Shown here: one piece after another, positions 3,632 through 36,599 of the stretch | Layout: every line of letters begins with the position of its first letter | How positions within the stretch are numbered: position 1 is the first letter of the stretch | Virus record (IMG/VR): IMGVR_UViG_3300024520_000238 | Location: 1 to 36,599 of that record | Strand: one strand, 5' to 3' | DNA: 36,599 nt | Origin: a virus | Notes under the pieces: generated by a model | The model's input: the letters and a program-made list of their open reading frames with translations, nothing else | The model's database searches: none | Told to the model about the DNA's origin: nothing | Program-made: the position numbers and the translations under genes

Positions 3632-3886
3632 ATGGATATTAGTTCAATTAATATACTTGCTTCATTTGTTTCAATCGTCGGAGTGGTATTGGCATACCTT
3701 TCTTTTTTAAAAGAGAAGTTGAAGTCAGCTGAGGACTTCGGCCAATTAAAGCAAAAGGTCGTTACTCTTGAAGAGCAATCCAAGATCAACGAGAACAGAT
3801 TCCAAACGATTGAAAAAAAACTAGATAATATTCAAGTAACACTTACAAGAATTGATACATCAGTTGCGAATTTATTAAAAGACTAA
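3632..3886 (+). CDS. Small N-anchored membrane protein with coiled coil
   Basis: The protein has 84 residues. ATG 3632 is chosen for AAGGG seven bases upstream; an upstream ATG at 3608 would overlap the divergent gene. Residues ~6-25 (INILASFVSIVGVVLAYLSFL) form a transmembrane helix, followed by a long amphipathic coiled coil (KQKVVTLEEQSKINENRFQTIEKKLDNIQ...). Its architecture resembles the product at 2568. It could be a holin-family or lysis-control protein, or an exclusion factor. Only topology supports this. Confidence 0.5.
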   Translation: MDISSINILASFVSIVGVVLAYLSFLKEKLKSAEDFGQLKQKVVTLEEQSKINENRFQTIEKKLDNIQVTLTRIDTSVANLLKD

Positions 3887-3946
3887 TTGCACTAAGAGAA
3901 TTCTTTTCATAATCTGATTATTCATCAATTGTGAAAAGAGAGACAA

Positions 3947-5959
3947 ATGCAAAATAAAATCTTAGGAGAGGTGTCCTTCGCTGCTCAATATGCAAAGAGT
4001 ACGAAAGGGGGGAGGGAGTCTTGGGAGGATGCTGTCAATCGAGTTGAGCAAATGCATATTAAGAAGTACAATAAGTATAAAATAGATGATGAGATCAAGT
4101 GGGCGTTTAGTCTTGTTAAACAAAAGAGAGTTTTTCCAAGCCAGAGATCGGTGCAGTTTGGGGGGCGAGCAATTGAACTAAACAATATGAGAATGTTTAA
4201 TTGTACGTTTTCCCCTTGCGACCGTACCCGCTTCTTTAGTGAAGCCTTCTGGTTATTGCTAAGTGGTTGTGGTACTGGGTTCTCAATACGCAAAAGACAC
4301 GTTAATAAATTACCGACGTTAATTAATGCTGAGCATTGGAAGTTAAGACCGGAGAGGATTCATATCGTACCAGACTCAATCGAGGGCTGGGCTAATGCGG
4401 CTTGGATGCTTATTGAAAGCTATTGCAGAGGGAGTTATTACAATATTGAGCATGACAAAGAGCTGATCTTTGACTATGACAACATCAGACCCAAGGGCAG
4501 CAAAATAAACTCCGGTGGTCTAGCTCCCGGCTATGGACCTTTAAAGATTGCACTCGATAAGATTAGAACACACTTAAGAAGTATTACAGAAGATACAAGA
4601 AAGTTTAAGCCCATCGACTGTTTAGATATTGCTATGTATCTTTCAGAGGCCGTATTAAGTGGAGGCGTAAGAAGATCAGCATCAATCGCTATATTTGATC
4701 AGGATGATTATGAAATGATGGCAGCTAAGCAGGGAGACTGGTGGGAGGATAATCCACAGCGAGCTTATGCTAACATCTCAGCATCTATTAAGTTAGATGG
4801 CAATGAAGAGAAGCAAGTCATCGATGAGATCATTAATAACGCTAGGGAGTGGGGGGAGCCGGGGGTTGCATTCTTTAAATCAAATCAACATGGAACCAAT
4901 CCTTGCGCCGAGATTGGCTTGATGGGCTGTCATATTAAGAATCAATACAATCAAACTCCAGATGAGATTACGCTTGAGATCTTAGATCTATGTGATGATG
5001 TTGAGATTAATAGAGCGTATTCTTTTAGAAGTGGATGGCAGGGTTGCAATCTTACAGAGATCAATATGGCAAAGAATAAGACTCTTGTTGAGTTCCTAGA
5101 GTCTTGCAAAGCGGCTGCTTTTATAGGCACACTACAAGCAGGATATACTAACGAGGGATATCTAGGAGCGGCATCTGGTCACATCATGAAGTACGAAGCA
5201 TTAATAGGAGTATCATTGACTGGCATGTGCGAGAATGAACTATCATTTAATCCTAAAGTCTTAAGAGAAGGAAGCCAGCTAATAGAAGATGAGAATAAAA
5301 GAGTTAGTGATCTCATCTATATAGCGTGGGCGAGTCGTACCACATGCATTAAGCCAAGCGGTAATACATCAACGGTCGCGGGTGGTATCTCAGCTGGTAT
5401 ACATCCTCATCATGCTAAGAGATATATTAGAAGAATGAGACTAAGTAAGATCAATCCGATATGGAAGGAGCTAAGTCATAAGGTTCCTTTGGCTTGTGAA
5501 TCACTTGATGATAATACCGGCGTTGTATCATTTGCATGCTCAGCGCCTAAAGGATCATTGACTAGAGAAGATGATACAGCATTAAAACATTTAGAACGTG
5601 TTAAGCTAGTCTATGAGAATTGGGTGGCACCCGGCTCTAAGAATTCAAGAGTCAAAGGTTTAACTCATAACGTTAGTAACACATGCACAGTAAAAGATAA
5701 TGAATGGGATGGCGTCGCTAGCTTTATCTATGATAATCGCGAGAGTCTTAGAGGCGTTGCTTTACTCGGCTATGTTGCTGATCACAAGTATAAGATGGCT
5801 CCCTATCAAACCGTAATAGAAGGCACTGAGTCAGAACAGATATGGGATAGCTTATTAAGAGTGGACTGGTCTCTAGTAGATTTAAACATCAGCGGAGATG
5901 GAGAAGATCCTGTATTAGATCCAGCATGTAGCGGCGGCGAGTGTATCACAAGTTTTTAA
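3947..5959 (+). CDS. nrdJ: Adenosylcobalamin-dependent (class II) ribonucleotide reductase
   Basis: The protein has 670 residues, a usual length for monomeric class II ribonucleoside-triphosphate reductases. It converts ribonucleotides to deoxyribonucleotides using a B12-generated thiyl radical. Visible landmarks are C86/C91 in MFNCTFSPC, GTGFSIRKRHV, SGGVRRSASIAIFDQDD, NPCAEIG with C320 and E322 (active-site motif), GCNLTEINM with C367, the CIKPSGNTSTVAG glycine-rich stretch, and a C-terminal redox pair C661-x4-C666 (ACSGGEC). ATG 3947 follows AAGAGAG. It stands alone on the plus strand, with no activating enzyme or small subunit, as expected for class II. Its stop codon lies inside the first plus-strand repeat of the CRISPR array. 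The substrate phosphate level is not determined here. Confidence 0.9.
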   Translation: MQNKILGEVSFAAQYAKSTKGGRESWEDAVNRVEQMHIKKYNKYKIDDEIKWAFSLVKQKRVFPSQRSVQFGGRAIELNNMRMFNCTFSPCDRTRFFSEAFWLLLSGCGTGFSIRKRHVNKLPTLINAEHWKLRPERIHIVPDSIEGWANAAWMLIESYCRGSYYNIEHDKELIFDYDNIRPKGSKINSGGLAPGYGPLKIALDKIRTHLRSITEDTRKFKPIDCLDIAMYLSEAVLSGGVRRSASIAIFDQDDYEMMAAKQGDWWEDNPQRAYANISASIKLDGNEEKQVIDEIINNAREWGEPGVAFFKSNQHGTNPCAEIGLMGCHIKNQYNQTPDEITLEILDLCDDVEINRAYSFRSGWQGCNLTEINMAKNKTLVEFLESCKAAAFIGTLQAGYTNEGYLGAASGHIMKYEALIGVSLTGMCENELSFNPKVLREGSQLIEDENKRVSDLIYIAWASRTTCIKPSGNTSTVAGGISAGIHPHHAKRYIRRMRLSKINPIWKELSHKVPLACESLDDNTGVVSFACSAPKGSLTREDDTALKHLERVKLVYENWVAPGSKNSRVKGLTHNVSNTCTVKDNEWDGVASFIYDNRESLRGVALLGYVADHKYKMAPYQTVIEGTESEQIWDSLLRVDWSLVDLNISGDGEDPVLDPACSGGECITSF

Positions 5960-6220
5960 GCCACCTATGCGGTGGTTAACGGTAGTTAAATCCTTCTATA
6001 AGCTCTTTGTATTTTCTAAGCCACCTATGCGGTGGTTAACTAGGCCCTCCAATGATAGACTAACATGAGCATTTTCTAAGCCACCTATGCGGTGGTTAAG
6101 ATACTGTTTCGCCTGTGTCAATGTCTTTGGTGTTTCTAAGCCACCTATGCGGCGGTTAATCGGTCAAAGGTCAAAGAATGTTTAATACGACTTTTCTAAG
6201 CCACCTATGCGGCGGTTAAC
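5953..6220 (-). CRISPR. Orphan type I-F CRISPR mini-array (5 repeats, 4 spacers)
   Basis: Repeats lie at 5953-5980, 6013-6040, 6073-6100, 6133-6160 and 6193-6220, each 28 bp with an exact 60-bp period. The four intervening 32-bp spacers are unrelated. Read on the minus strand, a repeat is GTTAA, stem CCACC, loop GCATA, stem GGTGG, then CTTAGAAA. This is the type I-F layout: 28-nt repeat, 5-bp Cas6f hairpin, 8-nt CUUAGAAA crRNA handle, 32-nt spacers. The two leader-side repeats carry CCGCC, which still pairs through one G-U. The 6100 and 6160 ends vary at the first base. The repeat at 5953 has a degenerate handle (CTTAAAAA), as expected for a terminal repeat. There are no cas genes in the window. 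In the crRNA sense, spacers begin AGTCGTATTAAACATT (nearest 6220), CACCAAAGACATTGAC, ATGCTCATGTTAGTCT and ATACAAAGAGCTTATA. Confidence 0.93.
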
Positions 6221-6284
6221 TTGAATCGTGACAAATCAGAAAAGCAATCATAAATGCTGACATTTAAGACGATATCGATATAAA
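6221..6284 (-). promoter_or_regulatory. Possible leader of the CRISPR array
   Basis: These 64 AT-rich bases separate the stop of the RecT-like gene from the first repeat, on the side expected for a leader. A TATGAT-like -10 element is present on the minus strand, but no matching -35 at standard spacing was found. The array may therefore be read through from the upstream operon. No canonical IHF site was seen. Confidence 0.3.
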
Positions 6285-6878
6285 CTAAAATGGTGTAGTG
6301 TCATCTTGCTTCGGTGGAGTAGAACCTTTTGGTACACGCTCGCCAGTAGCACTTGCAAAGACGATCTCATCTCTTAGTTTCTCATCTTGAATCATTGACT
6401 CTGCTAATTCATCAGGACTATATGATTGGCCAATGATCTCTGGATATGCAACTCTAAGTAAAGCAGTTAAGCAGCGTTTATGTAACATGTTCTTCGTCAT
6501 GTTTTTCCATGCTCTTTGATTAAGTAGTCCTCGTTGCTTTGCGTCATCAGTAGTAAAAGTCCAAGTATGTTCAAAGTCAAAATCCATCTCATCTCTTCTG
6601 CGGGTTCCGATTGTACAAGTCTTATCTGATAACTCTAGGATTCTGATGTAAGCACATATCTTAACACCATTATGATCTTTATATCTTCTCACTACTCCCG
6701 CCATCGCATCAGCATTCAGAGCGGGCTTGCCACTGATTACGTAAGTGTTAGCCAAAGTGACAGCAACGTTATTCTCGAAGAGATGTCCAAATGTAAGGAA
6801 TGCCTTGACGTTGTCATCCATGTCCTTGGGGCTTTTAGAAAGGTTCTGTATTACGTTTAAAGTGTTTTGATTTAACAT
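6285..6878 (-). CDS. RecT-like single-strand annealing recombinase
   Basis: The protein has 197 residues; AAGGA precedes the start at 6878. The run NTYVISGKPALNADAMAGVVRRY, a beta-rich middle (TRRRDEMDFDFEHTWTFTTDDAKQRGLL), then W-x-N-x-T-x-N-M-L-x-x-R-x-L-x-x-x-L-R-x-x-Y-P-E-I-I-G matches phage RecT-family annealing proteins. It would anneal ssDNA during replication and recombination. Oddly, its tail is PPKQDDTTPF, resembling the acidic SSB C-terminal tip (DDIPF) that the phage SSB lacks. It is the last gene before the CRISPR array in the leftward operon. The family call rests on motif resemblance. Confidence 0.65.
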   Translation of the reverse strand: MLNQNTLNVIQNLSKSPKDMDDNVKAFLTFGHLFENNVAVTLANTYVISGKPALNADAMAGVVRRYKDHNGVKICAYIRILELSDKTCTIGTRRRDEMDFDFEHTWTFTTDDAKQRGLLNQRAWKNMTKNMLHKRCLTALLRVAYPEIIGQSYSPDELAESMIQDEKLRDEIVFASATGERVPKGSTPPKQDDTTPF

Positions 6879-35413: not shown

Positions 35414-36599
35414 ATGAGCATTAAATTCGAATCATTCAAAGGAACTGGCGGCGGTGCGGTGACAGGTGGACTTGTTTACAAGGGTTCATATAATGCAACC
35501 ACATCAAGTCCATCATTAGTCACAGCAACAAAAGGGGACTTCTATATTGTGTCAGTCGCTGGAGCTCTGGCAGGTGTCACGCTTAATGTTGGTGATCACA
35601 TTGTATTCAATCAAGATGCTGCTAATCCTGTAACATCTGCCATGTTTGATACAATTGATAATACGGATGCAGTGGCAAGCGTCAACAGTCAAACTGGCGT
35701 TGTAGTTTTAAACGCTGCTAATGTTGGAGCTTTGGCAATAACATCGAATCTAAGTGATCTTAATAATGCAGTGACAGCAAGAACGAATCTTGGTCTTGGT
35801 ACAGCCGCAGTCAAAGACCATGGAACGACCAACGGTGATCTTGTTATTCTCGATGCAACTGGACTCCCTGCCGTTGATGGATCCCAATTAACAGGAGTCA
35901 CAGGAACGGACGCAACAAAGCTCGCTATTGCTAATAATCTTAGTGATCTTAACAATGCAACAACAGCAAGAACAAACCTTGGTCTTGGTACTGCAGCAGT
36001 TAAGAATCACGGAACGTCGAACGGAGATCTTGTTCTTCTTGATGCGACTGGACTTCCTGCTGTTGACGGTTCACAGCTTACAGGGATCACAGCAACAGAC
36101 TCCAGTAAACTCGCTATTGCTAACAATCTTAGTGATCTTAACAATGCAACAACAGCAAGAACAAACCTTGGTCTTGGTACTGCAGCAGTTAAGAATCACG
36201 GAACGACCAACGGTGATCTTGTTATTCTCGATGCAACTGGTCTTCCTGCCGTTAATGGATCACAGCTAACCGGTGTCACAGGAACGGACGCAACGAAGCT
36301 CGCTATTGCTAACAACTTAAGCGATCTGAATAATGCAGTGACAGCAAGAACAAACCTTGGACTCGGTACAGCCGCAGTTAAGAATCATGGAACGACCAAC
36401 GGTGATCTTGTTATTCTCGATGCAACTGGACTCCCTGCCGTTAATGGATCACAGCTAACCGGTGTCACAGGAACGGACGCAACGAAGCTCGCTATTGCTA
36501 ACAACTTAAGCGATCTGAATAATGCAGTGACAGCAAGAACAAACCTTGGACTTGGTACTGCAGCAGTTAAGAATCATGGAACGACAAATGGAGATCTTG
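35414..36599 (+). CDS. Tail fibre, N-terminal part (continues at position 1)
   Basis: ATG 35414 (MSIKFESFKGTGGGAVTGG) follows GAGG. Residues 1-~100 form the attachment domain; ASVNSQTGVVVLNAANVGA is the widespread phage fibre linker. Residues from ~119 are 63-residue repeats, with equivalent codons at 35771, 35960, 36149, 36338 and 36527, each 189 bp apart. No stop occurs before the window end; the 138-bp overlap with bases 1-138 extends the gene to 890. Confidence 0.88.
   Translation, partial: MSIKFESFKGTGGGAVTGGLVYKGSYNATTSSPSLVTATKGDFYIVSVAGALAGVTLNVGDHIVFNQDAANPVTSAMFDTIDNTDAVASVNSQTGVVVLNAANVGALAITSNLSDLNNAVTARTNLGLGTAAVKDHGTTNGDLVILDATGLPAVDGSQLTGVTGTDATKLAIANNLSDLNNATTARTNLGLGTAAVKNHGTSNGDLVLLDATGLPAVDGSQLTGITATDSSKLAIANNLSDLNNATTARTNLGLGTAAVKNHGTTNGDLVILDATGLPAVNGSQLTGVTGTDATKLAIANNLSDLNNAVTARTNLGLGTAAVKNHGTTNGDLVILDATGLPAVNGSQLTGVTGTDATKLAIANNLSDLNNAVTARTNLGLGTAAVKNHGTTNGDL
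35771..36599 (+). repeat. 189-bp tandem repeats of the fibre gene (right part)
   Basis: Five units (the last partial) start at 35771, 35960, 36149, 36338 and 36527. Variants shuffle GVTGTDATK with ITATDSSK and NNAV with NNAT, pointing to exchange between copies. Confidence 0.9.

Follow-up and report, generated by a model that had tools for sequence, protein, structure and literature searches.

A type I-F CRISPR array without cas genes or a host-type leader in a variable slot of a phage genome

A CRISPR array in a phage record that holds no cas gene raises the question of what a phage could do with guides for which it carries no enzymes. The window analysed here is the whole stretch of 36,599 nucleotides of IMG/VR record IMGVR_UViG_3300024520_000238. 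At positions 5953-6220 it holds five 28-nt repeats with an exact 60-bp period, separated by four unique 32-nt spacers and with the minus strand as coding sense (Table 1). An earlier note made from the letters of the sequence had described this anatomy, which was confirmed by the coordinates and by a periodicity test. At the 60-bp period, 26 of 28 positions matched over four successive repeat pairs, and in 200 first-order Markov simulations of the window the highest value was 13. The simulations exclude chance, and the array is real as a sequence.

The minus-strand repeat unit reads GTTAACC(G/A)CCGCATAGGTGGCTTAGAAA, the standard type I-F form. A 5-bp hairpin (stem CCRCC/GGTGG, loop GCATA) is present in every repeat, and the CTTAGAAA handle is kept in four of the five. 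In array order, from high to low coordinate, the repeats begin or read GTTAACCGCCGCATAGGTGGCTTAGAAA, ATTAACCGCC..., CTTAACCACC..., GTTAACCACC... and GTTAACCACCGCATAGGTGGCTTAAAAA. The variation is confined to position 1 (G, A, C, G and G in repeats 1-5), which lies outside the stem; to position 8 (G in repeats 1-2, A in repeats 3-5), where a G-U or an A-U pair retains the stem; and to the handle of the last repeat. The sole handle change, GAAA to AAAA, affects a repeat that precedes no spacer, and all other positions are constant. The differences fall where they would be expected to be neutral or least harmful, which is suggestive only, as the changes are few in total. Two repeats (3 and 4) were above the gathering score of Rfam CRISPR-DR4. 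The hairpin, the handle, the Rfam match and identity with a bacterial repeat described below support the type I-F assignment already proposed, and the anatomy fits functional crRNA units that would depend on host Cas6f and Cascade.

Table 1. Coordinates of the array and flanking features in the window.
Feature	Position	Strand	Sequence or remark
I-F repeat 1 (leader-side)	6193..6220	-	GTTAACCGCCGCATAGGTGGCTTAGAAA
Spacer 1	6161..6192	-	AGTCGTATTAAACATTCTTTGACCTTTGACCG; protospacer searched, not found
I-F repeat 2	6133..6160	-	ATTAACCGCCGCATAGGTGGCTTAGAAA
Spacer 2	6101..6132	-	CACCAAAGACATTGACACAGGCGAAACAGTAT; protospacer searched, not found
I-F repeat 3	6073..6100	-	CTTAACCACCGCATAGGTGGCTTAGAAA; Rfam CRISPR-DR4 match
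Spacer 3	6041..6072	-	ATGCTCATGTTAGTCTATCATTGGAGGGCCTA; protospacer searched, not found
I-F repeat 4	6013..6040	-	GTTAACCACCGCATAGGTGGCTTAGAAA; identical to the P. lutiphocae repeat; Rfam CRISPR-DR4 match
Spacer 4	5981..6012	-	ATACAAAGAGCTTATAGAAGGATTTAACTACC; protospacer searched, not found
Terminal I-F repeat 5	5953..5980	-	GTTAACCACCGCATAGGTGGCTTAAAAA; final bases overlap the RNR stop codon
Leader-side intergenic stretch, 64 bp, 70% A+T	6221..6284	-	
RecT-like single-strand annealing protein gene	6285..6878	-	directly upstream of the array
Ribonucleotide reductase (RNR), class II type insertion domain	3947..5959	+	convergent; stop inside the last repeat

The array is phage-borne, as the note had stated, given the portal, major head protein, terminase and tape measure genes on the same contig; RNR, thymidylate synthase, a replication initiator, a DnaC-like loader and a DNA methylase are also encoded. 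No Cas protein was found among the 40 window proteins scanned against PADLOC, and Cas6f (PF09618) was absent from a six-frame search of the window, in agreement with the claim that the phage has no cas gene. The record is probably near-complete, if not proven so, because both its ends fall in one repetitive tail-fibre reading frame. This tail-fibre-like gene lies across both record ends (35414-36599 and 1-890) and is built of a 189-bp (63-residue) repeat, inside which the contig probably broke. An assembly chimera was considered; the terminal repeat is continuous into the RNR stop, yet no second contig covers the array, and a contig of 99.99% identity ends at window position 6657, short of it. 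Because the I-F array is intact but the cas genes are absent, the phage most likely borrows host CRISPR enzymes. The need for host I-F Cas proteins, which the note had put forward, follows from the orphan I-F array, and a plausible type of host or donor exists.

That host or donor type was sought through the repeat. The search of a relaxed form of the repeat against 84,980 species found 21 stretches, and the exact repeat was present only in Psychrobacter lutiphocae, in 19 copies; comparison with host I-F arrays, a check suggested in the note, thus returned an exact match. The P. lutiphocae genome encodes Cas6f, with a csy3-like frame (recognised by eye) adjoining. One further repeat at most one mismatch away was found in 249 Moraxellaceae genomes, and no repeat that close was present in 248 Glaciecola-order genomes. 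The repeat hints that the host or donor is Psychrobacter-like and has a type I-F system. The host is not proven, because the phage is without a close relative among 50,697 phage records, in which the terminase and major head protein had no relative and the RecT-like protein distant relatives only. A terminase search of 239 Moraxellaceae and 369 class-level genomes was empty, an outcome that shows little, and 530 host-array spacers compared with the phage family gave, among the matches listed, only short chance-like ones. The Psychrobacter plasmid pA11BP5 carries csy1, csy2, csy3 and cas6f with a long array of a related repeat (positions 3761-5169 of locus L110); I-F systems therefore move on plasmids in Psychrobacter.

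The array occupies a cargo slot that is variable among relatives, a point that goes beyond the note and was drawn from sequence comparison. The recT-like gene (minus strand) and the RNR gene (plus strand) converge, and the 325 bp between them hold the array. For comparison, 25 IMG/VR loci were found by RecT, 15 of which, some near-duplicates, also show the RNR end. The recT-RNR gap in these 15 relatives ranges from a 4-bp overlap to 875 bp. It holds an N6/N4 DNA methylase in L008 and L009, an HNH nuclease in L012 and L019, an HNH-like frame (by eye) in L011, or otherwise short sequence. No I-F repeats were found in the slot of the 15 relatives, the array being present in one of 16 examined junctions, and the array was therefore gained by this phage or by close kin of it.

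The junction itself lies at the RNR stop. The RNR ends of the array-free relatives L011, L012, L019, L020 and L021 also read AGTTTTTAA, so the TTTTTAA that closes the last repeat is RNR sequence. As the odd base of that repeat belongs to the RNR stop region, the array is fused at the RNR stop, and the apparent decay of the terminal repeat is better explained by RNR-derived sequence. The resemblance of the RNR TTTTTAA to the TTTCTAA of the repeat suggests that the array was joined through short similarity.

To judge how the array might be expressed, its leader side was compared with six host I-F leaders. The 120 bp on this side were at or near the shuffle level, with a best result of 6 of 200 shuffles, and no host-type leader was found. 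As a control, Moraxellaceae leaders (P. lutiphocae against P. piechaudii and Moraxella atlantae) matched one another, with 0 of 200 shuffles. A leader adjoining the first repeat, one of the features looked for in a type I-F array, is missing here, again a point beyond the note. Leaders are typical of active arrays; orphan arrays can be without one. No minus-strand promoter consensus was found near repeat 1 and no terminator on the leader-side stretch. Since leader, promoter consensus and terminator were not found, read-through from recT is probably the likeliest source of an array transcript. The missing leader would make the gain of new spacers through host Cas1-Cas2/3 unlikely.

The spacers had been proposed to be aimed at competitors or host islands, a proposal for which no supporting match emerged from the collections searched. 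The suggested search of the four 32-mers, with attention to a CC PAM, gave no credible protospacer for any spacer in phages, plasmids, IMG/VR or 477 bacterial genomes. The array and its spacers returned no protospacer from phage and plasmid records, and seed patterns with every sixth base free returned from IMG/VR a best full-length match of 24/32, without an adjacent CC. Back-translated peptides of spacers 2 and 4, in guessed reading frames, gave no protospacer, nor did 239 Moraxellaceae genomes (spacer 2 by pattern, all spacers by BLAST). In 238 Glaciecola-order genomes, BLAST found nothing better than E 0.003, many of the matches straddling joins of the concatenated spacer query. Open frames in the spacers might have pointed to coding targets, but this idea was abandoned because stretches this short frequently lack stop codons by chance. 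In any array the majority of spacers go unmatched, and as this phage group is also poorly sampled, the negative result is weak. Against the phage and 25 relative loci the best matches were 20-22/32, equal to shuffled spacers, so that by this comparison the phage itself is not among their targets. Unique spacers with no self-match beyond chance are what a non-suicidal guide set requires.

The reading that we favour, and hold to be reasonably probable, is that of a captured guide set for host Cas6f and Cascade against competing elements. A type I-F mini-array without cas genes would have been captured by a tailed phage into the variable recT-RNR slot and joined at the RNR stop. It would be transcribed from the minus strand, probably as recT read-through, and host Cas6f would cut the transcript into four crRNAs with the CUUAGAAA handle. 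Once loaded into host I-F Cascade, the crRNAs would direct Cas2/3 against competitors in the same cell, whether related phages, plasmids or satellites. The exact geometry, the I-F repeat identity, the neutral-position variation, the lack of self-targeting and the variable slot were counted in its favour; the lack of a protospacer, promoter consensus, host-type leader or terminase match to a host in the searches was counted against it. Competition is placed first because published viral mini-arrays mostly target related viruses (PMC11656645, PMC6858448). A broader idea, offered tentatively, is that a leaderless guide cassette expressed from the recT recombination operon is swapped with nuclease and methylase genes in a dedicated slot, and that phages of this group trade inter-element weapons in modular form, a guide set for host Cascade being one such module.

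The same observations may be read in other ways. The repeats could mimic those of the host and occupy Cas6f and Cas7f, blocking host I-F immunity with the spacers as filler, a Racr-like device in five units. RacrIF1 acts in this manner against type I-F (PMC10651486), neither protospacers nor a leader were found, and, regardless of their spacers, non-productive crRNAs would take up host Cascade and dilute it. However, a Racr is encoded by a repeat that stands alone, and SRUFinder classes repeats that cluster within 100 bp as arrays and excludes them; the exact 32-nt spacing and a handle kept intact in four units are in keeping with real crRNAs and are not needed by a decoy. We consider this explanation unlikely. 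Quite unlikely, in our estimate, is a counter-defence role, in which the guides would be directed at islands or satellites that the host carries and that block the phage, in the manner of the ICP1 I-F system, which targets PLE in Vibrio cholerae. The slot alternates with an HNH nuclease in L012 and L019, much as the ICP1 CRISPR locus does with Odn (PMC11656645), but ICP1 has its own cas genes, and no spacer matched in 239 Moraxellaceae or 238 Glaciecola-order genomes, outside both of which the true host may lie.

The array could also be a fragment of a host array, gained by recombination and now without function. The leader and promoter consensus that were not found, the presence of the array in a single junction among those compared, and repeats that have begun to differ are all consistent with such a passenger. 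On the other hand, each of the four crRNA units has kept its hairpin and handle, the spacer lengths are exact, and the changes fall at expected-neutral positions, although these are too few for a strong argument; we rate this as the least probable of the explanations considered. If the captured guides are indeed used, the phage turns host immune enzymes on its rivals while carrying none itself, and the slot is a place to seek more such weapons in related phages.

The precedents named in the note, phage mini-arrays and ICP1 with a full I-F system, are borne out by the literature (PMC6858448, PMC11656645). Viral mini-arrays use host Cas proteins and mostly target related viruses (PMC6858448, PMC11656645), and in a review they are described as having 1-2 spacers (PMC11656645). 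Each mini-array of SPV1 and SPV2 contains 1-2 spacers behind a host-type leader that includes a promoter, and viral targets have been matched to the spacers (Medvedeva et al. 2019, PMC6858448); the addition of new spacers by host machinery was proposed for these arrays (PMC6858448). The present array resembles these in its intergenic viral location, repeats like those of cellular CRISPR, unique spacers and the absence of viral cas genes from a probably near-complete record. It differs in having four spacers (the limit of 1-2 being descriptive, not mechanistic), no leader, the I-F subtype and no target found, its relatives being thinly sampled. Its repeat matches that of P. lutiphocae exactly, which points to a putative type of host or donor. 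The chromosomal I-F array of P. lutiphocae DSM 21542 likewise has 32-nt spacers in a genome that encodes Cas6f; in contrast, it has 19 intact repeats with a degenerate end, a Moraxellaceae-like leader and all-different spacers.

Other mobile elements carry comparable repeats. In the Pasteurella phages Pmp3 (L030, 3003-3090) and Pmp1/Pmp2 (L112 and L113, 519-606), two unannotated I-F-type repeats 60 bp apart enclose one 32-nt spacer, and the spacer of Pmp3 is not that of Pmp1/Pmp2; Pmp14 (L111, 503-530) has a single altered repeat. An IMG/VR contig with lambda-like tail genes (L003, 3932-4079) has three identical I-F repeats at 60-bp spacing, for which no protospacer was found in phages. Single I-F repeats in two viral contigs (L002, 2175-2202; L004, 1307-1334) are candidate solitary repeat units. 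The Shewanella baltica conjugative plasmid pSB01-1 (L031, 5857-6162) holds a run of I-F-like repeats spaced mostly at 48-49 bp, which leaves 20-21 nt from one repeat to the next, and no cas gene is annotated close by; these gaps are too short for normal I-F spacers, and the run is possibly a decoy set.

RacrIF1 is likewise a phage-encoded I-F repeat able in principle to engage host Cas6f (PMC10651486), whereas the present locus has five repeats within 268 bp with regular spacers. ICP1, a Vibrio phage, shares the I-F type, the phage-borne location and a slot that varies between relatives and elsewhere holds a nuclease gene, its CRISPR locus alternating with the nuclease Odn (PMC11656645). In contrast to this phage, ICP1 encodes both cas genes and an adaptation module. 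Viral mini-arrays are thus already known, and what is particular here is the I-F subtype, the four spacers, the absence of a leader and a variable slot that resembles that of ICP1. The array adds a leaderless, four-guide type I-F case to the short list of viral mini-arrays, from a phage group without a close relative among the phage records searched.
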